From contig NZ_AFWT01000015.1 of assembly GCF_000224065.1 (NCBI RefSeq), forward strand, positions 62,001 to 126,000: 64,000 nt of DNA, in the 5' to 3' direction. This document shows positions 25,225 through 60,158 of the stretch, one piece after another (within the stretch, counting starts at the first letter, position 1; each line of letters starts with the position of its first letter). Both the position numbers and the translations under genes were made by a program. The notes beneath the pieces were generated by a model. It searched no databases, was not told the origin of the DNA, and was given only the letters and a program-made list of their open reading frames with translations. This DNA is from Thiorhodococcus drewsii AZ1. GTDB taxonomy: Bacteria; Pseudomonadota; Gammaproteobacteria; Chromatiales; Chromatiaceae.

Positions 25225-26187
25225 ATGATCGACAGTCTGCAACTCCTGATCGCTCAGACGGCGCCGCAACTCAAGCTCCGTTGGCTCACACCCGAGCCCA
25301 AGGAGCCACGCCCGCTGCGCGGCGAGACCCCCGCGCATGGGAGTCAGTCTCTGATCGGGTCGCTCAACTGCATCCACCCCAACCGACTGCAGGTGATCGG
25401 CCATCCCGAGCAGATCTATCTGACCGAACTGGGAAGCACCGCCTTTACCGAGACCATCGAAAAGCTCTTCGCCGATCGTCCCGCAGCGGTGCTCTTCTCC
25501 GATGACATCGAGCCGGATGCCGCCCTGCGAGAGGTCGCCGAGCGTACCCAAACCCCGCTTCTCAGCTCATCGCTCGGCGATCAGGATCTGATCAACCATC
25601 TACGCTATTTCCTGACCCACGCCTTGGCAGAACGCGAAACCGTTCACGGCGTCTTCATTGAGGTGCTGGGCATGGGCGTGCTGCTGGTGGGCAATCCTGC
25701 GGTGGGCAAGAGCGAGCTGGCCCTGGAGCTCATCACGCGCGGTCACCGCATCATCGCCGACGACGCGCCTCGATTCGCCCGCATCGCGCCCGAGGTACTG
25801 GAGGGAAGCTGTCCCGAGACACTCCGAGACTTTCTTGAGGTCCGCGGACTTGGCATCCTCAACATCCGGGCCATGTTCGGCGAGGGCGCGGTGCGGCGCG
25901 ACAAGACGCTCAACCTCATCATCGACCTGCAGCCACTGGACCACCAACAGCTCGAAAGCATCGACCGGCTCAGTGGAAGTCTCACGGCAATGAACATCCT
26001 GGGCGTCGCCATCCCTAAGATCGTGATGCCGGTCGCCCCAGGCCGCAATCTGGCCATCCTGGTCGAAGCGGCGGTGCGCCACCAGATTCTACGGATCAGG
26101 GGCTATGATGCCGGAGTGGATTTCATCGACCGCCAGGCTAGAGCGATCAGCATCGACCGACCGGATCCACCGGCACTCCGACGCTGA
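25225..26187 (+). CDS. hprK: HPr kinase/phosphorylase
   Basis: A 320-residue bifunctional enzyme that phosphorylates and dephosphorylates HPr on a serine. It has the Walker A loop GNPAVGKSELAL, the catalytic histidine in ETVHGVFIEVLGMGV and the signature EVRGLGILNIRAMFG. The segment HRIIADDAPRF differs from the usual ADDxVE form in having Arg in place of the acidic residue. HPr in this cluster keeps Ser46, so the pair is likely functional. It is typical of proteobacterial PTS clusters with rapZ. Confidence 0.95.
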   Translation: MIDSLQLLIAQTAPQLKLRWLTPEPKEPRPLRGETPAHGSQSLIGSLNCIHPNRLQVIGHPEQIYLTELGSTAFTETIEKLFADRPAAVLFSDDIEPDAALREVAERTQTPLLSSSLGDQDLINHLRYFLTHALAERETVHGVFIEVLGMGVLLVGNPAVGKSELALELITRGHRIIADDAPRFARIAPEVLEGSCPETLRDFLEVRGLGILNIRAMFGEGAVRRDKTLNLIIDLQPLDHQQLESIDRLSGSLTAMNILGVAIPKIVMPVAPGRNLAILVEAAVRHQILRIRGYDAGVDFIDRQARAISIDRPDPPALRR

Positions 26188-26247
26188 AGTCGCTGGACCT
26201 CACATCCAAATGTCTCACATCAACGATACCCGACGCGAAGACATGCG

Positions 26248-27105
26248 ATGAAACTCATCATTCTCAGTGGCCTCTCAGGCTCCGGAAAGAGCGTTGCGCT
26301 CCACACGCTCGAGGATCTGGGGTACTACTGCATCGACAACCTGCCGCTCTTCCTGCTGAAGGATTTGGCGCTGGGGCTCCACAACACGCTGGATACCGCC
26401 TTCACCAACACGGCCGTCGGAATCGATGCCCGAACCAACAGAGAGGCGCTGGTCCAGCTCCCCGAGTTGGTGATGACGGCATTGGAGCAAGGCATCGACT
26501 GCCATGTACTCTTTCTGGAGACCCAGACCGAGACCCTCATCAAGCGTTTCAGCGAGACACGCCGCAAGCATCCGCTGACGCGCGGCGATCGCCCCTTGAG
26601 CGAGGCCATCCAGCTGGAGCGCGAACTGCTCAAGCCGATCCGGGACTGCGCCGATGTCCAGATCGACACGACTCAAACCAACATCCACGAACTTCGCGAC
26701 CGGGTTCGCGGCTGGGCGATGGGCAACGCCTCGCCCAAGGCATCGATTCTGCTTCAGTCGTTCGGCTTCAAGCACGGGGTCCCACAGGACGTCGACTTCG
26801 TCTTCGACGTGCGCTGCCTACCCAATCCCCATTGGCAGCCCGAGCTCAAGCGACTGACCGGATTGGATCCGCTGGTCGAGGCGTTCCTGGAAAAACACGC
26901 CGAGACCCGAGACATGCGCGACGACATCCTCGCCTTCTTCGAGCGCTGGATCCCGCATTTCGAAACCGACGGCCGAAGCTATCTCACCATCGCCATCGGC
27001 TGCACCGGAGGCCAGCATCGCTCGGTCTACATGACGGAGCAACTGAGACGCCATTTCGAGCAACTCGGACATAGCGTCATCGTCCGACATCGAGAACTGG
27101 CGTGA
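26248..27105 (+). CDS. rapZ: RapZ, RNase adapter / nucleotide-binding protein
   Basis: A 285-residue YvcJ/RapZ protein with Walker A LSGLSGSGKSVALHTLED at the N-terminus and the C-terminal RNA-binding region (VDFVFDVRCLPNPHW, IAIGCTGGQHRSVYM). In E. coli it controls glucosamine-6-phosphate synthesis through small RNAs GlmY/GlmZ. The stop overlaps the next gene's GTG. Confidence 0.95.
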   Translation: MKLIILSGLSGSGKSVALHTLEDLGYYCIDNLPLFLLKDLALGLHNTLDTAFTNTAVGIDARTNREALVQLPELVMTALEQGIDCHVLFLETQTETLIKRFSETRRKHPLTRGDRPLSEAIQLERELLKPIRDCADVQIDTTQTNIHELRDRVRGWAMGNASPKASILLQSFGFKHGVPQDVDFVFDVRCLPNPHWQPELKRLTGLDPLVEAFLEKHAETRDMRDDILAFFERWIPHFETDGRSYLTIAIGCTGGQHRSVYMTEQLRRHFEQLGHSVIVRHRELA

Positions 27106-27497
27106 GCGTCGGCGTTCTGCTCATCACCCACAGCCCGCTCGCCGGGGATCTGCTGCGGATCGCAGGCGAGATACTCGGCACCGACCCAGCCGGTGTCGAG
27201 GGTGTGGAGGTCGTCAACGATACGCCGCGTGAGGATCTGATCGAGGAATGCCTGCGCCGCCTAGATCGGCTCAACGAGGGCGACGGTGTGCTCATCCTGA
27301 GCGACCTCTTCGGCTCTACACCGTGCAATGTGGCCAACAGGCTCCAGGAACTACGGACCAACGTACAGGTGCTCACCGGCGTGAATCTGCCCATGCTGTT
27401 GAGAGCGCTGAACTACGCCACCCTCGATCTGGATGCCGTGACCGAGAAGGCACTTCAGGGCGAACGCGATGGCGTCCAACTCTGCAAACACGACTGA
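27102..27497 (+). CDS. PTS EIIA component, mannose family
   Basis: A 131-residue EIIA(Man)-type protein. The phosphorylated histidine is His10 in LLITHSPLAGDLL, and LSDLFGSTPCNVAN is the family's active-site loop. The start is GTG at 27102 overlapping the rapZ stop. No EIIB or EIIC of the mannose family is present, so it probably serves as a regulatory phosphate acceptor, as in other proteobacterial clusters of this type. Confidence 0.92.
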   Translation: MSVGVLLITHSPLAGDLLRIAGEILGTDPAGVEGVEVVNDTPREDLIEECLRRLDRLNEGDGVLILSDLFGSTPCNVANRLQELRTNVQVLTGVNLPMLLRALNYATLDLDAVTEKALQGERDGVQLCKHD

Positions 27498-27539
27498 AAA
27501 CCGCGATGGGACCACTCGCGCAACAGGGATTCATGCCGG

Positions 27540-27809
27540 ATGATTCGCAAAGAATTCGAAATCTGTAACAAGCTGGGCCTGCATGCGCGGGCTGCAGCCA
27601 AGCTGGTGCAATGCGCCGGACGCTTCAAGAGCCATATCGAGATCGAACGCCGAGGCCAGAGCGTCAACAGCAAGAGCATCATGGGCGTGATGATGCTGGC
27701 CGCCAGCCAGGGCACCAAGGTGAGGGTTCAGGCCGAGGGCGAGGACGAGCAGGAGGCCATCGACGCGATCGAGACGCTCATCCGCGACCGTTTCGGAGAG
27801 AGCGAGTGA
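27540..27809 (+). CDS. ptsH: Phosphocarrier protein HPr
   Basis: An 89-residue HPr. His15 in LGLHARAAAKL is the EI-phosphorylated site. Ser46 in NSKSIMGVMMLA is the HprK site, so both control points are intact. The stop overlaps the EI start (GTG) by 4 bp. Confidence 0.96.
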   Translation: MIRKEFEICNKLGLHARAAAKLVQCAGRFKSHIEIERRGQSVNSKSIMGVMMLAASQGTKVRVQAEGEDEQEAIDAIETLIRDRFGESE

Positions 27810-29548
27810 CGATCGCGTTCCAGGGCATCGGGATCGCCTCGGCCTGCTCGATCGCCCTGGGCCCTGCCTTCATCGACGCCCGCGACCAGCATACCGCCGC
27901 CCATCGAGCCATCGCGGCCGATCAGGTCGAGGCCGAACTGACCCGATTCGATCAGGCCCTTGATGCCGCGCGCCAGGCGCTGCGAATGGTGCGGGACCAG
28001 ATTTCGACCGACAGCCGGATCCATGCCGCCGAATTCCTGGACGCGCATCTCCTGATGCTCGACGACCCGATGATGACCGGTGCGATCCAGCACATCGTCC
28101 AGAGCCAATTGTGCTGCGCCGAATGGGCGCTACAGATCCACTGCGAACGACTGATGCAGGTGTTCGACGAGATGGACGACACCTATTTGCGCGCGCGCGG
28201 GGACGACGTCCAGCACCTAGTGCGTCAGATTCAGGGATTCCTGCGCGAGGACGCCGCCCCACCCGTGCTCGCCGATCAGGACCTGATCGGCCATATCGTG
28301 GTCGCTCGGGATCTCACCCCGGCCGACGCCATTCTGCTCCACCAGCGTGGCGCCGCTGCCTTCGTGACCGAATACGGCGGGCCCACGTCGCACACCGCAA
28401 TCCTGGCCCGCAGCCTCGGTATCCCGGCGATCGTTGGGATCCACGAGGCCACGCGCTATCTGCGACCGAACGAGTTCCTGATCGTCGACGGCGAGACCGG
28501 CACACTGCTGGCCAGCTCGGATGACAACACGCGCCAGCATTTCCGCCAACGGCTGCGGGCTATCGAGCAACGTCAGCGCCAACTGCGCGACCTGGTGGAC
28601 CTGCCCTCTCGGACCCGCGACGGTGTACCCATCAAGATCATGGCCAACCTGGAGCTGTCCGAGGATGTCCAGGTCGCCCGGGCCGCAGGGGCGGACGGAG
28701 TGGGCCTCTACCGCACCGAGTTCCTCTACATGAATCGGGACGACCTCCCGGACGAAGAGGAACATCTGGCCAACTACATCGAGATCCTGGAGGGACTCGA
28801 TGGAATCCCGCTCACCATCCGCACGCTCGATCTGGGCGTGGACAAACGCACCGACGCCATGCCCGGCCCGAGTGACAACGCGACCAATCCAGCGCTCGGA
28901 CTGCGCGCAATTCGGCTCTGCCTCAAGGAACTCGAACTCTTTCGCCCGCAGCTGCGCGCCATACTGCGCGCCTCCGCGCTCGGACCGGTCAGACTCATGC
29001 TCCCCCTGGTGACCAATCTGCATGAGGTGGACACGGTCCTCGACCTCATCGGCCAGATCAAGCGCGAACTCGACGCAGACGGACTCGACTACGATCCCCG
29101 GATGCGGATCGGTGCCATGATCGAGGTGCCAGGCGCCGCGCTCGCGGCCAGACCCATCGCCCGCCGACTGGATTTTCTCTCCATCGGCACCAACGATCTC
29201 ATCCAATACACGCTCGCCATCGACAGACTGGACGACGCGGTCAACTATCTCTTCGACCCAACCCATCCGGCCATCCTGCGGCTGATCCGCATCATCATCG
29301 AGGCCGGCGCAGCCGAGGGCGTCCCTGTCAGCATGTGCGGCGAAATGGCCAGCGACCCCCGCTTCACCCGACTGCTGCTCGGAATGGGATTGCGCGAATT
29401 CAGCATGCAACCAGGCGCTATTCTAAATATCAAAGAGACCGTGCTGAACGCCGACACCCAGAAGCTGAACGCGCGCGCCGAGTTCCTTTTCACGCGCCTG
29501 GACGACGCCGATCCGAGTCTTCTGCTCGATGCCCTGAACGCCGACTGA
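27806..29548 (+). CDS. ptsI: PTS enzyme I
   Basis: A 580-residue PEP-protein phosphotransferase that charges HPr. The active histidine is His196 in GGPTSHTAILARSLGIPAIVG; the PEP-binding barrel shows GVGLYRTEFLYM, DLGVDKR, LSIGTNDLIQYTLAIDR and VSMCGEMASD. It lacks the N-terminal GAF domain of the EI(Ntr) form, although its partners include EIIA(Ntr). The start is GTG 27806, overlapping ptsH. Confidence 0.95.
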   Translation: MTIAFQGIGIASACSIALGPAFIDARDQHTAAHRAIAADQVEAELTRFDQALDAARQALRMVRDQISTDSRIHAAEFLDAHLLMLDDPMMTGAIQHIVQSQLCCAEWALQIHCERLMQVFDEMDDTYLRARGDDVQHLVRQIQGFLREDAAPPVLADQDLIGHIVVARDLTPADAILLHQRGAAAFVTEYGGPTSHTAILARSLGIPAIVGIHEATRYLRPNEFLIVDGETGTLLASSDDNTRQHFRQRLRAIEQRQRQLRDLVDLPSRTRDGVPIKIMANLELSEDVQVARAAGADGVGLYRTEFLYMNRDDLPDEEEHLANYIEILEGLDGIPLTIRTLDLGVDKRTDAMPGPSDNATNPALGLRAIRLCLKELELFRPQLRAILRASALGPVRLMLPLVTNLHEVDTVLDLIGQIKRELDADGLDYDPRMRIGAMIEVPGAALAARPIARRLDFLSIGTNDLIQYTLAIDRLDDAVNYLFDPTHPAILRLIRIIIEAGAAEGVPVSMCGEMASDPRFTRLLLGMGLREFSMQPGAILNIKETVLNADTQKLNARAEFLFTRLDDADPSLLLDALNAD

Positions 29549-29632: not shown

Positions 29633-30994
29633 ATGACCGTCCCCGTTCCCAGCAACCCCGACAACACCCGACTCGAGGATCTGCAGCAGGTTCTGCAGCA
29701 GGGTGGGATGCGTCGGGCCGCGCGCATGCTCAACGCACTACAGCCGGCCGAAATCGCCCATCTGCTCGAATCGCTCCCACCCAAGGAACGCGAACTGGTG
29801 TGGAATCTGGTGGAGGCCGAATACGACGGCGAGGTCCTCACCTATCTCCACGACGATGTCCGCGAGCATCTGATCCGGCTGATGGACACCGGCGAGCTGA
29901 TCGCCGCCATGGGCAGCCTGGACACGGACGACCTGGCCGACATGCTGCAGGACCTGCCGGTCGCCATCACCCAGGAGGTGGTCAAATCGCTCGATCAGCA
30001 GCGACGCGACCGTCTCGAAAAGGCCCTGTCGTTCGACGAAGACAGCGCCGGCGGTCTCATGAACACCGACACCGTGACGGTGCGTCCCGAGATGACGCTC
30101 GACGTGGTGATGCGCTATCTGCGCCGACTCAAGGACGGACTGCCGGACATCACCGACAACCTCATCGTGGTCGACCGCAAGGGTCACTATCTCGGGGTCC
30201 TCTATCTGACCGACCTGCTCACCCACGACCCGGAGGACACGGTCGCCGAGGCCATGACGCTCGACGTACAGGCCATTCCGGCCTCGTGGAGCGCGCGCGA
30301 GGTCGCGACCCGATTCGAGCAACACGATCTGGTCACGGCGCCGGTCGTGGACGAGGACGGAAGCCTGCTCGGACGCATCACGGTCGACGACGTCATGGAC
30401 GTCATCCGTGAGGAGGCCGATCACCAGTTCCTAGGACAGGCCGGTCTGTCGGAGACCGAGGACATGTTCGCCCCGGTCCTGCTCAGCGCCCGCCGCCGAG
30501 CGCTCTGGCTCGGCGTCAACCTGCTCACCGCCTTCCTCGCGGCCTGGGTCATCGGACGCTTCGAGGCAACCATCCAGCAGGTGGTGGCCCTGGCCGTGCT
30601 GATGCCCGTGGTGGCCAGCATGGGCGGCATCGCCGGCACACAGACGCTCACGCTTGCCATTCGCGGGCTCGCGCTCGGACAGCTCTCGATCAACAACGCA
30701 CGCTGGCTCCTGTGGAAGGAGATGGCGGTCGCCGGCATCAACAGCGTCATCTGGGCCATCGTCGTCGCGCTGGTCGCCAAGCTGTGGTTCCACGACACCG
30801 ACATCGCACTGGTCATCGGCGCCGCCATCAGCATCAACCTGCTGGCCGCCGCCTTCTCCGGCGCCCTGCTCCCGCTGGCACTCGAACGCTTCGGAATCGA
30901 CCCCGCGCTGGCCGGTGGCGTCATCCTCACCACGGTCACCGACGTCATCGGCTTCCTCTCCTTCCTCGGCCTGGCGACCATCTTCCTGCTGTAA
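29633..30994 (+). CDS. mgtE: Magnesium transporter MgtE
   Basis: A 453-residue Mg2+ channel. An N-terminal superhelical domain (about residues 15-130), two CBS domains (about 135-260) and five C-terminal helices with the pore motif MPVVASMGGIAGTQTLTLAIR are present. Cytoplasmic Mg2+ bound between the N and CBS domains closes the pore. It ends the PTS cluster, as it also does in Xanthomonas-type clusters. Confidence 0.95.
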   Translation: MTVPVPSNPDNTRLEDLQQVLQQGGMRRAARMLNALQPAEIAHLLESLPPKERELVWNLVEAEYDGEVLTYLHDDVREHLIRLMDTGELIAAMGSLDTDDLADMLQDLPVAITQEVVKSLDQQRRDRLEKALSFDEDSAGGLMNTDTVTVRPEMTLDVVMRYLRRLKDGLPDITDNLIVVDRKGHYLGVLYLTDLLTHDPEDTVAEAMTLDVQAIPASWSAREVATRFEQHDLVTAPVVDEDGSLLGRITVDDVMDVIREEADHQFLGQAGLSETEDMFAPVLLSARRRALWLGVNLLTAFLAAWVIGRFEATIQQVVALAVLMPVVASMGGIAGTQTLTLAIRGLALGQLSINNARWLLWKEMAVAGINSVIWAIVVALVAKLWFHDTDIALVIGAAISINLLAAAFSGALLPLALERFGIDPALAGGVILTTVTDVIGFLSFLGLATIFLL

Positions 30995-50204: not shown

Positions 50205-51905
50205 ATGAACAGCCACACAAGGACGGGGCAGGATTCGCCAAAGGGCCAGGAACTGCGCCAGCGCGCCGAGAAGCATCTGAGGGAGACGCAGCACCCGCAG
50301 GATCGAACGTCCACGCCGAACGAAAGCGAGCGCCTGATCCATGAGCTGCAGGTGCATCAGATCGAGCTGGAGTTGCAGAACGAGGAATTGAGGCGCATCC
50401 AAGAATCCCTGGAGTTCTCCCGGGCGCGCTATTTCGATCTCTACGACCTGGCGCCGGTCGGCTACCTCACGCTCGCCGATCACGGACTGATCCGGGACGC
50501 GAATCTAGCCGCCGCCAGCCTGATCGGCGTGCCGCGAAGCCTCTTGATCGATGCCCCGCTGTCACGCTTCATTCACCCCAACGACAGCGATCGGCTCTAC
50601 CATTGCCGCCAGGACATCATGGTCGCGGGCGGACGACAAAGCTGTGAGGTCGGTCTACGCCGAGACGATGAGACGACCCTGCCCGTCAGACTGGACATGA
50701 GCCTCGGGATCGACCGTGAAACAGGCCTCGCCCAATACCTGACCATGCTCACCGACATCAGCGAGCTCAAGTCAGCCGAGGCCGCGCGACAGGAGGAAGA
50801 CCGCCGCAAGGAAGGATTCATCGCCTCGCTCGGGCACGAGCTGAGAAACCCGCTGTCCCCGATCCAACAGATCGCGAATCTGCTGGGTTCGGATGCGGTG
50901 CTCGATCCCAGCCAGATCCGACACGCCAAGGACATCCTCAATCGTCAGGTCGGCCATCTCACACGGCTGGTCGATGATCTACTCGATGTCGCCCGGATCG
51001 GCCGAGGCGGCATTCCGCTGGCCAAACGCGGCTGCGATCTGCGCGAGGTGGTACAGATTGCCGCCGAGCAGTTGCGTCCGCTGCTCGAACAGTCTGGCCA
51101 GCGGCTGGATCTGAGCCTGCCGGATACGCCAGCGAACGTGCATGGGGATCCGGTGCGACTCGCCCAGGCGATCTCCAACCTGATCCGAAACGCCAGCCAA
51201 TTCAGCCGGCCTGAATCCAGGGTCACACTGGAGATGGAGTGCACCAAGAGCGACGTGCAACTGCGGGTGCGCGATCAGGGCGTCGGGTTCCCCGACTCCG
51301 CCTTAGACGGGTTATTTACGCCATTCAGACACACCGACCAGACGGAGACCTATTCCAGCGGCGGGTTGAGCATGGGGCTCGCGCTCGTCAAGGGACTGGT
51401 GGAATTGCACGGGGGAGAAATCACGGCCAGCAGTCCAGGACCCAACCAGGGCAGCACCTTCGAGGTACACCTGCCCTTATCGCGCCAGGAACCGGTCGAC
51501 GTGATTTCGCCGCACCGGGGCGTACCGATTGCGCCTCATCGCATCCTGGTGGTCGAGGACAACCCCGATGTCGCCGAGGCCCTCCTGCTGTTACTGCGCA
51601 TGCTCGGCCAGCAGGCCGAATCCGTGGCCGATGGACTCGCCGCACTCGCGGCGTCGAAGCGCCTGAACCCCGATCTGATCCTGATCGACCTGGGATTGCC
51701 GGGAATGGATGGCCTGGAGTTGGCCCGCCATCTGCGAACGACCGATACGGGACGACGGGCACGGCTGGTCGCCGTCACCGGATATGGTCGGGATCGCGAG
51801 CGCTCGAGACGGGCGGGGTTCGACGAACACCTGCTCAAGCCGGTCGGACAGGTCGCCCTGGTCGACATCCTGGCCGACTGTCCGTCGTCCACACTGAGGC
51901 ATTGA
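50205..51905 (+). CDS. PAS hybrid histidine kinase with receiver domain (2)
   Basis: A 566-residue soluble hybrid kinase built like its neighbour. The N-terminal linker RLIHELQVHQIELELQNEEL and PAS (about 76-190) are close paralogues of those in the upstream gene. HisKA has His211 in SLGHELRNPLSPI, the ATPase domain includes VRDQGVGFPD and SMGLALVKGLVELHGG, and the receiver has Asp495 in LILIDLGLPGMDG. It is 132 bp after the first kinase and 20 bp before the GGDEF/EAL gene. Confidence 0.93.
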   Translation: MNSHTRTGQDSPKGQELRQRAEKHLRETQHPQDRTSTPNESERLIHELQVHQIELELQNEELRRIQESLEFSRARYFDLYDLAPVGYLTLADHGLIRDANLAAASLIGVPRSLLIDAPLSRFIHPNDSDRLYHCRQDIMVAGGRQSCEVGLRRDDETTLPVRLDMSLGIDRETGLAQYLTMLTDISELKSAEAARQEEDRRKEGFIASLGHELRNPLSPIQQIANLLGSDAVLDPSQIRHAKDILNRQVGHLTRLVDDLLDVARIGRGGIPLAKRGCDLREVVQIAAEQLRPLLEQSGQRLDLSLPDTPANVHGDPVRLAQAISNLIRNASQFSRPESRVTLEMECTKSDVQLRVRDQGVGFPDSALDGLFTPFRHTDQTETYSSGGLSMGLALVKGLVELHGGEITASSPGPNQGSTFEVHLPLSRQEPVDVISPHRGVPIAPHRILVVEDNPDVAEALLLLLRMLGQQAESVADGLAALAASKRLNPDLILIDLGLPGMDGLELARHLRTTDTGRRARLVAVTGYGRDRERSRRAGFDEHLLKPVGQVALVDILADCPSSTLRH

Positions 51906-51925
51906 TCCTTTGCCTGGAGGGAACC

Positions 51926-54211
51926 ATGAGCCACTCGAAGAAACCCGAGACCGAGCCACCGGCCGATTCCACACAGACGTTACAGACGTTGCGCCATCGC
52001 GCCGAGACGCAATTCGCCGTCTCGAACGCCCCAGCACTCAGCAACCTGACACCCCAGGGGGGCGACGAGCTGGTTCAGGAGCTGCAGATCCATCAGATCG
52101 AGCTGCAGATGCAAAACGACGAGCTGCGACGCGCACAAGAGGCATTGGAGCAGTCCCGCACACGCTACTTCGACCTCTACGACCTGGCGCCCGTCGGCTA
52201 CATCACACTCGATCAGAGCGGAATCATCCAGGAAGCGAATCTCGCAGCCGCCTCGCTCACCGTTACCCCTCGAACCAGCCTGATCGGCCAACCGCTGAGT
52301 CGTCTCATCCACAGTGAGGATCAAGATATCTGGTATCTCAGCCGCCAACGGTTGCGATCAACGGGCGATCGCCAGCACTGCGAACTGAGGCTACAACAAT
52401 CCAACGGAACAACCCGTTGGACGTGCATGGACACCCGCCTTGAGACACCCACCGATCCGAACACCTGCTCCTGGATCATCCTGACAGACATCACAGAGCA
52501 TAAAGAGAGCGAACGCCAGTTGCTCGAAACGCAGGCACGCCTGCATCGGATGATGGAAATCGCCGAACTGAGCTTCTGGGAATGGACGCCTCACACCAAC
52601 GCCATCTATTTCCCACCCGAATGGCGCCGCCAGACCGGGTACGGGGCGGGTGAGCTACCCCAGAGTTTCGAGGAATGGGCCACGCTCCTGTATCCACAGG
52701 ACCGCGAACGGATGCTCGAACGTCTCGACGCGATCGCCGCCGGGCGGATCTCCACCTGTGAGATTCAATACCGACTGCGCCACAAGGACGGAGACTATCG
52801 CTGGTTCAGCGCGCGTCTGGAGCCGATCCTGAATGACTCCGGGCACATCGAACGGATCTTGGGCGTCCACCAGAACGTGACCCAACGCAAACTGGCCGAG
52901 GATCAGGCGCTCCAACTCGCCCAACATGACCCGCTGACCGGGCTACCGACACGCGGGCTGCTCGAACAGCTCGCCAACCGCATGCTGGTCAACGCCAAGC
53001 GTTCCGGGTCGCAGATGGCGGTCCTGTTCGTCGACCTGGATCGCTTCAAGGCCGTCAACGACACCTACGGGCACGCCGTCGGCGACCAGTTGCTGCAGTC
53101 GGTCGCGCAGCGGCTGCGCGAGACCTTTCGCGCCCAGGATCTGGCGGCACGCCTCGGCGGCGACGAGTTCGTCGTCGTACTGGCCGACATCCGCGATGGC
53201 GAGGACGCCGCCCGCGTGGCGCAAACGGCCATCGACTCACTGTCGCGCCCCTACCCGATCGATGGCTTGGATCTGATCGTACGCCCCAGCATCGGCATCA
53301 GCCTCTACCCCGAGGACGCCCAGACCATCGGCGATCTGATCCAGCGGGCAGACCTCGCCATGTACCACACCAAGCAGGTCAGCCCAGGACACTATCAATT
53401 CGTCACCGAGGCGCTCAACCGGCAGGCGCAAACGACCCTGGCATTGGAACGGCGTCTGCGCGAGGCGATTTCTCAGCAGGCGTTCAGGCTCGTCTATCAA
53501 CCGATGCTCGATTTTCAGAGCGGCGACATCGTCGGCGTGGAGGCCCTACTGCGCTGGCCGCAGCCCGACGGAACCGAAATCCCGCCCTTGAGTTTCCTGC
53601 CGCTCGCCGAGTCGATCGGCCTGATCCATGAGCTGGGCCAATGGGTATTCGAGGAGGTGTGCCGACAACATCACGCCTGGCAAAAGGCCGGCCTACCCCT
53701 GGTGCGGATCGAGGTGAATGTCTCGACGCGCCAATTTCGTCATCAGTCGTTTCTGTCCCATCTCGCTCAGACCCTCCGAACCAGCGGCGTCGAACCCTCC
53801 GTACTCTCACTGGAATTGGGCGAGGCCACATTGCTGCAGGATCTGCCGACCGCCCGGCACACCCTGGCGGGCCTGCATGATCTTGGGGTTCGCGTCGCGC
53901 TCGCGGACTTCGGCATGGGCTGTTCCTGCCTGAGCGAATTCGACGATCTGTCGCTCGACCGGCTCGGGATCAACCGGGCCCTGGTGCGACGCCTGGATGG
54001 ACCGAACATGCAAGCCATCGTCGAGACCATCGTGCGCCTGGGCCAGCGATTGCAGCTCGACGTGATCGCGGTCGGCATTGAGACGGAGGCGCAATTGGAC
54101 TTCTTCCGTGACCTCGGCTGCAATCAGGTGCAAGGGTTTTCTCTGGGAGCACCCATGACGGGAGATGCCTTCGTCGACTGGTGCCACGACCGTTCCGCCG
54201 GGCCCTGCTGA
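51926..54211 (+). CDS. PAS-PAS-GGDEF-EAL c-di-GMP signalling protein
   Basis: A 761-residue soluble protein. The same linker-PAS module as its two neighbours comes first (QELQIHQIELQMQNDELRRA, PAS about 79-193), then a second PAS/PAC (about 205-325). GGDEF at 411-415 is intact, with an RxxD inhibitory site at 402-405, so diguanylate cyclase activity is likely. The EAL domain keeps E539 but reads ADFG (660-663) for DDFG, Gly681 for the catalytic Lys and Val716 for Glu, so phosphodiesterase activity is probably lost. GGAGGG precedes ATG 51926; the longer upstream frame overlaps the kinase gene. Confidence 0.93.
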   Translation: MSHSKKPETEPPADSTQTLQTLRHRAETQFAVSNAPALSNLTPQGGDELVQELQIHQIELQMQNDELRRAQEALEQSRTRYFDLYDLAPVGYITLDQSGIIQEANLAAASLTVTPRTSLIGQPLSRLIHSEDQDIWYLSRQRLRSTGDRQHCELRLQQSNGTTRWTCMDTRLETPTDPNTCSWIILTDITEHKESERQLLETQARLHRMMEIAELSFWEWTPHTNAIYFPPEWRRQTGYGAGELPQSFEEWATLLYPQDRERMLERLDAIAAGRISTCEIQYRLRHKDGDYRWFSARLEPILNDSGHIERILGVHQNVTQRKLAEDQALQLAQHDPLTGLPTRGLLEQLANRMLVNAKRSGSQMAVLFVDLDRFKAVNDTYGHAVGDQLLQSVAQRLRETFRAQDLAARLGGDEFVVVLADIRDGEDAARVAQTAIDSLSRPYPIDGLDLIVRPSIGISLYPEDAQTIGDLIQRADLAMYHTKQVSPGHYQFVTEALNRQAQTTLALERRLREAISQQAFRLVYQPMLDFQSGDIVGVEALLRWPQPDGTEIPPLSFLPLAESIGLIHELGQWVFEEVCRQHHAWQKAGLPLVRIEVNVSTRQFRHQSFLSHLAQTLRTSGVEPSVLSLELGEATLLQDLPTARHTLAGLHDLGVRVALADFGMGCSCLSEFDDLSLDRLGINRALVRRLDGPNMQAIVETIVRLGQRLQLDVIAVGIETEAQLDFFRDLGCNQVQGFSLGAPMTGDAFVDWCHDRSAGPC

Positions 54212-55427: not shown

Positions 55428-56540
55428 ATGGACGTCTACCCGACCGCGAATAGACCGTCACAAGCGCCCGGAGTCGACCGAACCTCGACGAGACCATCAG
55501 GCAGCGCCGTGAATCCACCCCATTGGGCCTTCTGGGCGGCCTGCATTCTGTGGCCGAGCATCGGCCTGGCGAACGCGGACCTGGAGGACGGCCTCGCACG
55601 CTGCGCGACCATCTCCGAGTCGAGCGCCAGACTGGCCTGTTTCGATTCACTGGCCAAGCACCCACCGAGCGCCCAGCCCAGCATCGCGGTCGCCCCGATC
55701 CCTCTGCCGGCGGCTGAAACGAAAGCGGTCGCGGCCCAACCCATGACCGCGGCCACCGCGCCCTCGATACCCGACATCGGGGAGGAGGCGAATCAGCGGC
55801 GCTCGCTCGGAATCCGTCCCTATCGACCGAATTACCTCCTGCCGGTCTCCTACAACGACAATCCCAACCGCAACCTACCAGGTCAGGAGAGTATCGACAT
55901 CCCCTTCCTCGGCGATGCGCTCGACAATGTCGAGATGAAGTTCCAGATCAGCTTCGAGGTGCCGCTCTGGACCAACATCCTCAACCGCGAGCTAGATCTC
56001 TATTTCGCCTACACCCAGCTCGCCTTCTTCCAGGCCTACAACCAGGAATACTCGTCGCCCTTCCGCGAGACCAACTACGAGCCCGAACTGGGCCTGAATT
56101 GGCAGCCAAATCTCTCCGCGCTGGGCTGGCGCCTGTACTCGGCGCGGGTGATGCTGAATCACCAGTCCAACGGCCGCTCCGACCCGTTGTCACGGAGCTG
56201 GAACCGGCTGATCGGACAGTTCGAGGCCGAACAGGGTCCGTTCCAGCTCGCCCTGAGGGTCTGGTCGCCGCTTGAGCCCAGCCCATCCGACAACCCGGAC
56301 ATCTACGAGTATCTGGGCTACGGCGAGCTCCACGGCGGCTACGATCTGGGCAAGCACCATTTCGGCGTCATGTTCCGCAACCCAACACACCCCAGCGTCC
56401 AGCTCGACTGGACCTATCCCTTGAGCGACACGATCAAGGTCTACGCCCAGTATTTCAACGGCTACGGCGAAAGCCTGATCGATTTCGACCACTCGGTAAA
56501 CCGCATCGGAGTCGGCTTCCTGCTGAACGAGTGGCCATAG
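55428..56540 (+). CDS. pldA: Outer-membrane phospholipase A
   Basis: A 370-residue OMPLA-type phospholipase. The catalytic set is intact: His and Ser in NHQSNGRSDPL and Asn 12 residues later in RSWNR, the same spacing as His142, Ser144 and Asn156 of E. coli OMPLA. The barrel ends in RIGVGFLLNEWP. Residues 30-50 form a signal-like helix after an unusually long N-terminus. The stretch LARCATISESSARLACFDSL, before the barrel, is an accessory motif not found in E. coli PldA. AAGGAG supports ATG 55428. Confidence 0.9.
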   Translation: MDVYPTANRPSQAPGVDRTSTRPSGSAVNPPHWAFWAACILWPSIGLANADLEDGLARCATISESSARLACFDSLAKHPPSAQPSIAVAPIPLPAAETKAVAAQPMTAATAPSIPDIGEEANQRRSLGIRPYRPNYLLPVSYNDNPNRNLPGQESIDIPFLGDALDNVEMKFQISFEVPLWTNILNRELDLYFAYTQLAFFQAYNQEYSSPFRETNYEPELGLNWQPNLSALGWRLYSARVMLNHQSNGRSDPLSRSWNRLIGQFEAEQGPFQLALRVWSPLEPSPSDNPDIYEYLGYGELHGGYDLGKHHFGVMFRNPTHPSVQLDWTYPLSDTIKVYAQYFNGYGESLIDFDHSVNRIGVGFLLNEWP

Positions 56541-56601
56541 GCTCCGTCCACAGTTTCCGCTTCCCAGTCATCAAAGCGGCCATCGACCGACCTCCCCCAC
56601 C

Positions 56602-56627
56602 GGCGGCTTACATGGATGTAATCCGCC
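56602..56627. promoter_or_regulatory. 26-bp dyad upstream of yfdX
   Basis: GGCGG-C-TTACAT-GG-ATGTAA-T-CCGCC is an inverted repeat with only one mismatch pair. It lies 62 bp after pldA and 136 bp before yfdX. It could be an operator, with TACA/TGTA half-sites, or a hairpin; no T tract follows. Confidence 0.45.
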
Positions 56628-56762
56628 CGCCAGCGTTCGTTAAGGTGCCCTGACGGATACTGTCAGCGTCGGTAAAGAAGACTCACGTCGAAACAGGATC
56701 GCGGCGCCATTGCGGCGATCCATCGGTTAGATGCCAGCCATCAGACACAAGGGGAGACTTCG

Positions 56763-57656
56763 ATGAAACGCACCTATCAGATCACCGCCGCCACACTCAT
56801 CGCACTGGCCTTCGTCGGCGTCACTCGGCAGCACGCCCAGGCCGAGAGCACGACGGCGTCCAGCGACGCCAGCACCATCACGACCATCGTCACCGGCGGC
56901 CCCAGCAAGAAACAGGCGGCCGAACTCTCCGAGCACGGACTGGCCGCCGCCAATGCGATCCATCTGGCGCGGCTGGCGATCAACGACGGCTATGTTGACA
57001 GCGCCAAGAAACTGCTCGCCGACAGCCGCAAACTGCTCGATGAAGTCAGAAAGGAAGACCGTCCGGTCACGGTCACGACCGATGTCAAGAACGCGGGCAA
57101 GAAGGTCGAGCAGGCACAGAGCAAGGAACGCATGGACCTGATTCCCATCCTGTCCGAGCTCCAGGTCGTCGAGGGCTTCGGCGCGCCAGCCAAGGCGGCG
57201 ACCGATACGGCCAAGGACACGCCACAGACCTCGGCGGACGCCAAGCAGGCCGCAACCATGGACAAGGCATCGAAGCAGCAGACAGCCGCGCGGACCCAGG
57301 CGGAAGACAAGGCCATCTCAGAGGCCAAGGAGCATCTGCGCCAGGGCGACCAGCAGGCCGCAGCCAAGGCGCTGAAATTGGCGGATCTGACCCTGGTCAC
57401 CCGGATGGTCAGCCTGCCTCTGGAGGAGACCACCCAAAAACTGGATGCTGCCATCAAGCTCGTCGACCAAGGCAAGCTGCATGAGGCCAATCTGGAGCTG
57501 AAGCAGATCCAAGATAGCATGGTCCTGACCACGTCGGTCGTGTCCGAACCGGTCGCCGCGACCGATGCCGCACAGAGCGACGCCCACAACCAGACGGCCC
57601 AAAACGACCAACACCAGAACGGTCAAACCGATTCGGCCAAGACCAAGATCAACTGA
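56763..57656 (+). CDS. YfdX-family periplasmic protein
   Basis: A 297-residue YfdX protein with a signal peptide ending near QHAQA. Core features are LAAANAIHLARLAINDGYVD, AKKLLADSRKLL, AKEHLRQGDQQAAAKALKLA and LDAAIKLVDQGKLHEANLEL. It is rich in Ala, Lys and Gln and mostly helical, with a polar tail (QNDQHQNGQTDSAKTKIN). YfdX in enterobacteria is linked to acid and drug stress through EvgA; its biochemical role here is unknown. Confidence 0.88.
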   Translation: MKRTYQITAATLIALAFVGVTRQHAQAESTTASSDASTITTIVTGGPSKKQAAELSEHGLAAANAIHLARLAINDGYVDSAKKLLADSRKLLDEVRKEDRPVTVTTDVKNAGKKVEQAQSKERMDLIPILSELQVVEGFGAPAKAATDTAKDTPQTSADAKQAATMDKASKQQTAARTQAEDKAISEAKEHLRQGDQQAAAKALKLADLTLVTRMVSLPLEETTQKLDAAIKLVDQGKLHEANLELKQIQDSMVLTTSVVSEPVAATDAAQSDAHNQTAQNDQHQNGQTDSAKTKIN

Positions 57657-57974: not shown

Positions 57975-60158
57975 ATGGTTGAAAACTCCCTCCCGGCCCA
58001 TCGCTGGGCCAGGCTTCCTGAGGCGGCCCGGGAATCCGGACGAGCGCTTTTAGGCCTGCTGACCCGAGCAGGAGACCATCCGCTGCTCCTCTCGATCCAG
58101 CGCGGACTCGCCTTGATCCTGCCGCTCATCATGATCGGCGCCTTCGCCACCTTGGCTCGGGACATCCCGTGGCCGTCACTGCACCAGATGCTCGATGCCA
58201 ACCTCGGGCCGACGTGGCGAGTCGTCTGCGACAACCTGATCGACGGCTCGTCCGGAATCGCCTCGCTCGCACTCTTGTGCACGCTCGCCGGGACCATGAC
58301 GACCCTGCACAACCAAACGCACGCTCGGCATTTCGTCAGCCCCATCATGACGGTGGTCGTGGTGCTCTCCTGCTTCTTCGTCATCACCGCACCAAGCGAA
58401 CCGCAGAACGAGGGAGTGCGGTTGTTGTTGAATCGCGGACTTCTGCTCTCGATGGTCATCGCCACGCTCGGCTCCTGGATCCTGCTGCGCCTCGCTCGAA
58501 TCAGGCTGCTGCGAACACCCTTCCGCAACGTCGGAAGCGATCCGATGATCCGCGACGCGCTCGCCCTCATGCCCGCCGGGATTCTGACCATCGCCTTGTT
58601 CGCCGTCCTGAGAGGGTTGCTCAATGTCGCGGAGCTCACGAGCTTCGACGCCAGCCTGAGCGAGTGGCTGATAAGCCCCTTCGTCGAGATGGAAAGCAAT
58701 CTCGGAGCCGGACTCGCCTACGCCGGCTTGTCCCAGATCCTCTGGTTCTTCGGCGCGCATGGCCCCAACCTGCTGAGCGCCTTCGAAACACATCTGCTGA
58801 TACCCGCCGACCTGGCGAACGCGGCCGCCGTCCAGCTTGGCGAGACCCCAAGCTTCATCGTGACCAAGAGCTTCATCGACGCCTTCGCCCGGCTCGGCGG
58901 ATCCGGAAGTACGCTCAGCATCATTCTGGCTATCCTCGTCGTCAGCCGCGACAACGGCAGCCGCCGACTCGTCGTCTTCGCGCTACTCCCCGCGCTCTGC
59001 AACGTGAACGAGCCCCTGCTGTTCGGCATCCCCCTGATCCTCAATCCGAGCTACCTCATCCCCTTCATCATGACGCCCCTGATCCAGACCCTCACCGCCT
59101 TCGTGGCGACGGCGCTGGATCTGATCCCCCACACGACGCATCCACCGAATTGGACGACGCCGATCCTGGTCAGCGGATTCGTTACCACGGGCTCGCCGTC
59201 GGGGATGGCGATGCAACTGTTCAACCTCCTGCTCGGAACGCTCATCTATATCCCCTTCGTTCGGCTCGCCGATCGGGTCCGGGAGCAGCAGGGCAAAAGG
59301 GTCATGAACGCACTGCTACGGGCCGCAGAAGGACCCGAGGTCGGACCGGGCGGAATCAAGTGTCTCGACCGACCGGGCGAGGAAGGACGGCTGGCCAAGG
59401 CGCTCGGCGAGGATCTCGACCTGGCGCTGAGGGAGGGACACGAGCTCTTCCTCGAATACCAGCCCCAGATCCACATCGACGGACCCCGCGTCCACGGGGT
59501 CGAGGCGCTGGTGCGTTGGGAGCACCCCGTCTACGGACGCGTTCCCCCCCCCGTGATCGTCGCTATCGCCGAGGACATGCGCATCATCGACCGGCTCGGC
59601 GCCTTCGTGCTCGCCACGGCCTGCCATCTGCGCTCCCAATGGCGCGGGCGGGTCCCCGACGCGCTGGTCATCTCGGTCAACGCCTCGCCCCAACAGCTGA
59701 TCGACCCGGCGTTCGAGCGCACCGTCATCGACGTCTTGGAAGACACCAAGCTCGCCCCCGCACTGCTCGAATTGGAGATCACGGAATCGACCCTGCTCAT
59801 CCCGGACGCGCCCGCGCTGGAGGCACTGCGACGATTGAGGGCAACCGGCGTGCGGATCGCCATCGATGACTTCGGCATGGGACATACCTCGCTGCGCTAT
59901 CTGCGCGAGCTTCCGATCGACACGGTCAAGATCGACCGCTCGCTGGCTCAAGGAGCGCCGGGAGGCATCGATGAGTACATCATCCGCAGCATCAACGACC
60001 TGAGTCGCTCGCTCGGTCTCTTCACCATCGTCGAAGGCGTCGAAACCGACCGACAACTGCAACAATGCATCGCGCTCGGCTGCGAGGCCTTCCAGGGCTA
60101 TCTCTTCAGCCGACCGCTCTCCGCCGATGCCTGTTTCGACTTCATCGCCGCCGCCTAG
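57975..60158 (+). CDS. PTS EIIC (lactose/cellobiose-type) membrane domain fused to an EAL phosphodiesterase
   Basis: A 727-residue fusion. Residues 30-435 are a PTS EIIC of the cellobiose/lactose class, with WFFGAHGPN at 257-265 and the sugar-site motif NEPLLFGIPLILNP at 345-358. Residues 475-725 are an EAL domain with E510-A-L, NAS at 569-571, ELEITES, DDFG at 631-634, KID at 652-654 and EGVE at 687-690, all intact, so it should cleave c-di-GMP. No EIIA or EIIB domain is present. I infer a membrane sensor for a sugar or PTS state that lowers c-di-GMP. It overlaps the convergent LysE gene by 4 bp. Confidence 0.93.
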   Translation: MVENSLPAHRWARLPEAARESGRALLGLLTRAGDHPLLLSIQRGLALILPLIMIGAFATLARDIPWPSLHQMLDANLGPTWRVVCDNLIDGSSGIASLALLCTLAGTMTTLHNQTHARHFVSPIMTVVVVLSCFFVITAPSEPQNEGVRLLLNRGLLLSMVIATLGSWILLRLARIRLLRTPFRNVGSDPMIRDALALMPAGILTIALFAVLRGLLNVAELTSFDASLSEWLISPFVEMESNLGAGLAYAGLSQILWFFGAHGPNLLSAFETHLLIPADLANAAAVQLGETPSFIVTKSFIDAFARLGGSGSTLSIILAILVVSRDNGSRRLVVFALLPALCNVNEPLLFGIPLILNPSYLIPFIMTPLIQTLTAFVATALDLIPHTTHPPNWTTPILVSGFVTTGSPSGMAMQLFNLLLGTLIYIPFVRLADRVREQQGKRVMNALLRAAEGPEVGPGGIKCLDRPGEEGRLAKALGEDLDLALREGHELFLEYQPQIHIDGPRVHGVEALVRWEHPVYGRVPPPVIVAIAEDMRIIDRLGAFVLATACHLRSQWRGRVPDALVISVNASPQQLIDPAFERTVIDVLEDTKLAPALLELEITESTLLIPDAPALEALRRLRATGVRIAIDDFGMGHTSLRYLRELPIDTVKIDRSLAQGAPGGIDEYIIRSINDLSRSLGLFTIVEGVETDRQLQQCIALGCEAFQGYLFSRPLSADACFDFIAAA

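Follow-up and report, generated by a model that had tools for sequence, protein, structure and literature searches.

An EIIC-EAL fusion of Thiorhodococcus drewsii as a candidate sugar-sensing phosphodiesterase

Among the domains of cyclic di-GMP (c-di-GMP) proteins, a review counts PTS_EIIC, the EIIC domain of the phosphotransferase system (PTS), as rare and terms it a phosphoreceiver (PMC8846402, 2022). The sugar example in the accessible part of that review is EIIA-Glc with PdeS. A receptor derived from a transporter fold has been described in the 5TMR and ECF S-component proteins, whose link is termed the first prokaryotic transceptor case (PMC11109136). Here, we analysed a gene of Thiorhodococcus drewsii AZ1 in which an EIIC domain is joined to an EAL phosphodiesterase domain. 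It lies at 57975..60158 on the + strand of the window, by which we mean the whole stretch of 64,000 nucleotides that was analysed (contig NZ_AFWT01000015.1, positions 62,001 to 126,000).

The EIIC-EAL architecture is already known, and what is new is the evidence, drawn from sequence comparison, that its EIIC may be a retired transporter with a live pocket. This makes a sugar-sensing phosphodiesterase the leading explanation. The fusion is probably a membrane sugar receptor that arose from a retired PTS transporter and would control c-di-GMP hydrolysis. The original prediction, made from the DNA letters, had proposed a transporter turned into a sensor. The proposal survives the comparative tests, with pocket and catalytic site conserved, whereas the binding, the identity of the sugar and the control of the EAL domain are what we infer. 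No functional study of an EIIC-EAL protein was found in the literature searched, where only the review above names PTS_EIIC with EAL.

Domain architecture, fold and sugar pocket

The gene starts with ATG and encodes an uninterrupted protein of 727 amino acids (P0001). Its Pfam scan finds two families only, PTS_EIIC at residues 44-368 (E 1e-21) and EAL at 480-714 (E 2e-61; 59412..60116), and neither an EIIA nor an EIIB domain within the protein. The open reading frame (ORF), Pfam and NCBIfam results bear out the coordinates and the EIIC-EAL description of the original prediction, including its statement that the protein holds no EIIA or EIIB. The EAL family PF00563 scores 207.8 bits against a cut-off of 31.3, with the catalytic-site residues in place, and both PHROGs matches fall on the EAL part.

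For the EIIC part (residues 29-440; 58059..59294), the best NCBIfam models are the cellobiose/lactose models TIGR00359 and TIGR00410. Its score of 209.5 bits stays below both curated cut-offs, 434 and 236 bits, respectively, though the lactose/cellobiose subfamily is where NCBIfam puts it. The sole solved EIIC matched by sequence is the chitobiose transporter bcChbC (PDB 3qnq; E 5e-38; 24-25% identity).

The AlphaFold (AF2) model of the whole protein has a mean predicted local distance difference test score (pLDDT) of 91.6 and a predicted template modelling score (pTM) of 0.87. Its EAL half, with 3n3t and 8arv as the closest solved folds, fits 3n3t with Z 34.0 and a root-mean-square deviation (rmsd) of 1.7 over 255. 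The structure matches of the full-length model were filled by EAL, hence the EIIC part was folded and compared alone (pLDDT 89.5). It matches 3qnq (Z 28.5, rmsd 11.4 over 329), the MalT structures 5iws (Z 16.2, rmsd 5.0 over 361) and 6bvg (Z 9.0, rmsd 7.5 over 320) and the inward-facing glucose IIC 8qsr (Z 10.2, rmsd 7.0 over 300).

We read the EIIC model as nearer the outward state because of its fit to 5iws versus 6bvg and 3qnq, as a review table has 5iws in one state column and the latter two in the other (PMC7329351). The static model shows a complete predicted elevator fold, which speaks to the fold and not to movement. In the model, a helix of residues 408-452 spans the final EIIC helix into the linker, and an EAL entry helix comes at 468-487 (together 59196..59435). 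The linker F428-Q496 has 67 residues in 44 of 90 fusions, with a range of 62-73.

The pocket residues were counted in 91 fusions besides that of the window, three of them cut by contig ends. In the alignment, His262 of the segment WFFGAHG (residues 257-263; 58743..58763) corresponds to His250 of bcChbC and Glu346 of NVNEP (343-347; 59001..59015) to its Glu334. These two are the only ligand residues that the chitobiose transporter has in common with the glucose transporter (PMC11393339), and the window protein carries both of them in an EIIC elevator fold. The fusions keep E346 and N343 in all 91, G263 in 90, W257 in 89, H262 in 86, W393 in 85 and N345 in 82, with a mean EIIC identity among them of 34%. 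The same columns are invariant or near-invariant in fusions and transporters alike. The NEP motif of the original prediction is there in the window protein, but its proline occurs in just 19 of the 91 fusions and is no family feature.

The EAL positions tabulated in the window protein are E510, R514, N569, E601, E604, D631, D632, K652, E687, E690 and Q707. We take these eleven residues to be canonical for EAL phosphodiesterases, and their metal and substrate roles are presumed likewise; the original prediction of an intact EAL domain agrees with them. All but E690 and Q707 are invariant (91/91), E690 being Glu in 85 fusions and Asp in six and Q707 being kept in 90. A degenerate EAL is ruled out by this conservation. 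The domain appears to have what is needed to cut c-di-GMP and is a predicted hydrolase.

A loop motif is lost in the fusions. Across 41 stand-alone EIICs, 45 bcChbC positions are at least 85% conserved. With a position counted as retained at 60% or more, the fusions retain one of the eight such positions in the segment 158-190 and 32 of the 37 elsewhere (Fisher p 1.2e-4, a value that is no prior test, as the segment was picked after viewing the conservation list and depends on the MAFFT alignment columns). Lost in this segment are E158, I170, P173, V176, P177, F184 and L187. By the helix order of the model, the segment is taken as the end of transmembrane helix (TM) 4, the TM4-5 loop and the start of TM5.

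The loop itself, between the model helices 156-174 and 190-218 (58497..58544), is missing the stand-alone motif P-x-x-V-P and is likewise taken as the cytoplasmic TM4-TM5 loop. The TM4-5 loop of the glucose transporter is cytoplasmic and stretches as far as the transport domain of the adjacent protomer (PMC11393339). Its role may be in EIIB docking or in the transport step.

PTS partners in the host and across the family

The T. drewsii genome of 5.52 Mb has two EIIC matches, the fusion and a 638-amino-acid protein that combines two EIIB domains with an EIIC, which we read as a fructose EIIBC. Both matches of the EIIB family PF02302 lie inside the frame of the latter, and the lac-type EIIA (PF02255) has no match in the genome, so that cognate EIIB and EIIA were not found in it. 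EI and HPr exist in the genome, one set of them inside the window. There, a regulatory PTS cluster at 25225..29548 on the + strand encodes HprK, RapZ, EIIA-Man, HPr (27546-27785) and EI, and is a possible, unproven partner of the fusion. Hence the host has a regulatory PTS but no lac-type EIIA or EIIB. An MgtE-type gene (29633-30994) follows the cluster.

Across the family (L and G numbers denote our loci and genomes), an EIIB profile scan places an EIIB beside 41 of 46 stand-alone EIIC loci versus none of 101 fusion loci. The profile was made mostly from the EIIBs at the same stand-alone loci, which makes the 41/46 partly a matter of construction but not the 0/101. The flanks scanned were about 1.4 kb per stand-alone locus, and for the fusions a median of 14 kb at 80 loci and of 4.1 kb at 21. 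Five of the 101 duplicate another locus (L101 and L116, both the window, L115, L166 and L170), and the truncated stand-alone L111, with no EIIB found within 2.7 kb, was excluded from the 46.

The genome-wide search for lac-type EIIB covered 67 genomes, of which G038, G243, G300 and G352 were set aside as having no known fusion. In the remaining 63, 54 had no match, and the nine with one were G066 and G427 (both weak), G326, G332, G418, G424, G429, G439 and G440. Lac-type EIIA had no match in 57 of 64 fusion genomes, a count in which G477 and G398 are apparently the same genome. The other seven carry lac-type EIIB as well, as would suit an ordinary transporter whose EIIB and EIIA are encoded elsewhere and whose EAL is a passenger. 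But in G429, the sole genome checked by position, EIIA and EIIB adjoin a stand-alone EIIC, and the fusion lies about 240 kb away; with most fusion genomes giving no lac-type EIIB match, such a transporter is extremely improbable.

The original prediction had named an EIIC paired with cognate EIIA and EIIB as what would speak against a sensor; no such pairing appeared at the loci, in the host or in these 54 genomes. A working transporter with cognate EIIA and EIIB is rejected on the own-genome, family-wide and locus-flank searches.

If the 2022 label of phosphoreceiver applied, the fusion would be a PTS-coupled switch on which the cell's EIIB and EIIA, or HPr and EIIA-Man, act. EI was found in 54 of these 63 genomes, T. 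drewsii among them, which leaves a PTS link some probability, and the HprK, EIIA-Man, HPr and EI of the window could supply it; EIIA-Glc controlling PdeS is a precedent (PMC6877527). On the other side, EI was not found in nine of the 63 genomes, eight of which gave no HPr match as well. G342, one of the nine, is 100% complete and has a fusion with no match for EI, HPr, lac-type EIIA or lac-type EIIB; it is the only one of them with a stated completeness, which is given for few fusion genomes.

The G342 fusion retains W257, H262, N343, E346 and W393 but has two substitutions near the pocket, N345 to C and T394 to M. The other eight genomes have nine loci, and all twelve tabulated pocket positions are retained in them. 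Moreover, the PTS phosphate is known to sit on EIIA and EIIB rather than on EIIC, and an EIIB is missing from every fusion locus scanned. The fusion data argue against the phosphoreceiver label, and we regard such a switch as quite improbable.

Distribution, descent and gene neighbourhood

A survey of the distribution, suggested by the original prediction, was made in two ways. A protein-seeded scan with one genome per species gave 210 confirmed stretches, and the best 80 were fetched as loci L005-L084. An uninterrupted single-frame fusion is found in 79 of them; L084 shows a stop at the first reading and a fusion from a later start. The contig start truncates L064, L068 and L075, and L018 has an open 3′ end. 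An artefact of assembly or frame is ruled out by these loci together with the family-model samples described below.

By record title or tree label, the carriers belong to Pseudomonadota, Desulfobacterota/Thermodesulfobacteriota, Bacillota, Synergistota, Planctomycetota and Spirochaetota, and one is labelled Myxococcota. The EIIC-EAL arrangement thus recurs in at least six phyla. The original prediction, by which related fusions may exist, was right but understated, as PTS_EIIC is also catalogued in the 2022 review (PMC8846402).

Many of the L005-L084 carriers are metagenome-assembled genomes (Zoogloeaceae, Synergistaceae, Desulfovibrio). Their bin names are presumably those of a termite-gut series. 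Another fusion, whose pocket and catalytic residues are the same, stands on a Clostridioides difficile plasmid record (L177; NZ_CP149720.1 45156-47258), where the public annotation reads merely 'EAL domain-containing protein'. A C. difficile list of c-di-GMP genes from 2011 reportedly includes EIIC-EAL proteins.

The second view came from a search for the lacE-type family, blind to EAL, in genome samples of Pseudomonadota, Desulfobacterota and Bacillota. Of 398 Pseudomonadota genomes, 31 had a match, 16 of them above the cut-off in frames of 422-572 amino acids. At least 15 genomes, two among the 16, had weaker matches in frames of 672-742 amino acids; loci were available for 13 of these, with the window among them, and each of the 13 proved to be a fusion, while G326 and G332 were counted as carriers by frame length alone. 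The 297 Desulfobacterota genomes gave six matches, all above the cut-off (238-282 bits) in frames of 734-802 amino acids, and no stand-alone lactose/cellobiose-type EIIC was seen in this sample.

All six Desulfobacterota fusions keep the pocket and catalytic residues; two of them, G402 (the sample centre) and G409, were already known from the protein-seeded scan. Among 299 Bacillota genomes, 46 had matches, 43 above the cut-off and mostly in transporter-length frames. Three Bacillota frames had 705-751 amino acids, one from the centre genome of the sample and the other two seen by frame length. In the Pseudomonadota and Bacillota searches, scoring was limited to the top four or five candidates of each genome, so these counts may miss fusions where a genome is rich in transporters.

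A tree built from the EIIC part alone, with 105 rows, separates 63 fusions from 42 stand-alones by one branch, with a Shimodaira-Hasegawa-like approximate likelihood ratio test (SH-aLRT) support of 100. The split keeps its support of 100 with 53 fusions and 40 stand-alones after removal of 12 long or doubtful rows. The tree is unrooted, carries SH-aLRT support only and is unevenly sampled, the fusions by likeness to the window protein and the stand-alones by the family model. Across 90 fusions the EIIC and EAL identities correlate with r 0.93, a value that none of 999 permutations reached, so the two halves appear to have travelled together. Recent or repeated fusion is ruled out by the single branch and this correlation.

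The closest homologues of the window fusion by best-segment identity belong to Chromatiaceae and are from Thiocystis violacea (69%), an uncultured Chromatium (68%) and Thiorhodococcus mannitoliphagus (67%). In a sample of relatives, a full-length match is found in two of 34 genomes of the own family, T. drewsii itself and G477, and the single same-genus genome matches by EAL parts only. Three Chromatiaceae rows of the tree sit amid Desulfobacterota fusions, in an 8-row branch with support 96, which suggests a lateral gain by the Chromatiaceae.

Diguanylate cyclases stand beside some of the fusions. A GGDEF motif scan of 80 fusion loci, with 0.87 Mb of flank, found 13 GGDEF frames in 12 loci. 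At nine loci the distance between frame and fusion is at most 335 bp, and the strand is always the same (p 1.5e-7, which overstates independence as the nine come from about three lineages). The frame is upstream in L005, L006, L007, L069, L073, L076 and L083 and downstream in L050 and L052. These neighbours were found by motif, with Pfam confirming GGDEF in L005, L007, L052, L069, L073 and L083; L084 entered the scan with wrong fusion ends.

In the Chromatiaceae loci, the cyclases end at the fusion start (L005 6868-7932, L006 6934-7998, L007 6946-7998), and Pfam recognises nothing in their N-terminal half. The T. drewsii genome itself encodes, on another contig, a relative that matches the Thiorhodococcus cyclase over its full length (64% over 346 residues; G000:C139:78765-79802; L175). 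In the same-genus genome without the fusion, one of six genomes searched, the matches listed cover only parts of the cyclase, including its GGDEF end. In the Clostridia locus L069 (6122-7987), the fusion comes after a V4R-domain protein and a GGDEF protein.

The gene next upstream of the window fusion is of the YfdX type and not GGDEF. It follows a phospholipase A1 (PF02253), and the two, the second with a YfdX domain (PF10938), take up 55428-57656. Farther upstream, a PAS hybrid histidine kinase (50205-51905) is followed by a PAS-PAS-GGDEF-EAL protein (51914-54208). The promoter and terminator scan gave no promoter-like site and one terminator-like site on the opposite strand.

A neighbour survey called 147 ORFs at 37 of the 80 loci and kept 117 of 120-1150 amino acids, of which 115 were scanned with two large ones omitted. 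The commonest families were GGDEF (six) and V4R (four). A sugar kinase or glycosidase is absent among the 25 most frequent, contrary to what a transceptor that still transports would lead one to expect, an EIIC that passes unphosphorylated sugar as a facilitator and signals at once. The pocket and the elevator-type fold are intact, and we see no sequence feature that blocks movement. But the lost loop motif would suggest mechanics that are altered rather than retained, and together with the neighbours it makes continued transport unlikely.

Proposed mechanism and comparison with known systems

An EIIC fit to bind but not to phosphorylate a sugar and an EAL fit to cut c-di-GMP make a receptor the economical reading. 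In the mechanism that we propose, the EIIC part keeps its elevator fold and sugar pocket but would have given up the EIIB partner and the cytoplasmic loop motif. The pocket would bind a sugar, most likely a cellobiose- or chitobiose-type beta-linked disaccharide, and the transport domain would shift. The last membrane helix, which extends into the linker as a single long helix, would carry the shift to the EAL domain in the cytoplasm, whose dimer state and rate of c-di-GMP hydrolysis would change in response. As to the sign, our guess is that the sugar activates hydrolysis. In some lineages, the adjacent diguanylate cyclase and the fusion could set the local c-di-GMP as a pair.

Several observations weigh against a sugar receptor. 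The pocket His262 is replaced in four full-length fusions (L067, L102, L107 and L108), of which L107 also has no W257 and L108 no W393. Five more positions are lost outside the loop, F111, P223, L224, P335 and P381, and 335 and 381 adjoin pocket residues. To these are added the two changes in G342 and the EI found in most of the fusion genomes. The 25 commonest of the 165 families in the 115 neighbour ORFs include none that is sugar-specific, so that nothing there names a sugar. The AF2 model is a monomer and displays no signalling step, and sugar binding and activity are predicted from sequence and model.

The replaced pocket residues and the loss of P335 and P381 would fit an EIIC that serves merely as membrane anchor and dimeriser, its pocket residues being kept for folding. 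A mere anchor, however, would not need Glu334, His250 and Trp382, and the pocket residues are near-invariant both in transporters and in fusions of at least six phyla, which makes an anchor improbable.

The fusion has the features of a transceptor, namely transporter homology, a signalling output domain and no transport partner. A wider reading, to which we give an even chance, is that of a transceptor class. An elevator-type PTS transporter would once have been fused to a phosphodiesterase, given up phosphotransfer and spread between phyla, including genomes without a detected PTS. It would report an extracellular disaccharide to c-di-GMP, sometimes with a dedicated cyclase adjacent.

Compared with the lactose, cellobiose and chitobiose EIICs (TIGR00410; bcChbC, 3qnq), the window fusion is alike in sequence family, fold and the positions of the pocket Glu, His and Trp. 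It differs in its score below the cut-off, the missing EIIB and EIIA partners, the lost loop motif, the C-terminal EAL and the separate branch. Its EAL has the fold in common with the BifA/MorA/DosP-type EAL domains (PDB 8arv, 4rni, 9cmf) at 32-43% identity. To our knowledge, none of these is fused to an EIIC.

The signals of many c-di-GMP enzymes are unknown, and here the proposed sensor has as its homologue a transporter whose structure and sugar pocket are known, which points directly to ligands to try and pocket residues to mutate. In PdeS of Vibrio cholerae, as in the role proposed for the fusion, the sugar state controls an EAL phosphodiesterase (PMC6877527). The control of PdeS comes from a separate phosphorylated EIIA-Glc, and the term EIIC is absent from the main text of that report as far as it is accessible. 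The entries of the 2022 review resemble the fusion in having EIIC with c-di-GMP enzyme domains (PMC8846402). The review calls EIIC a phosphoreceiver and in its accessible part names no studied EIIC example, whereas the fusion data favour a sugar receptor without phosphotransfer. If true, this corrects the catalogued reading of EIIC in c-di-GMP proteins.

The 5TMR and S-component transceptors are, like the fusion, receptors from a transporter fold with GGDEF or EAL outputs (PMC11109136). They have another fold and their kinship was seen by structure comparison, whereas that of the fusion is plain in sequence and its ligand site is conserved. If the proposal holds, the fusion would make a bacterial conversion of transporter to receptor visible by sequence, with the ligand site kept and the energy-coupling partner lost.

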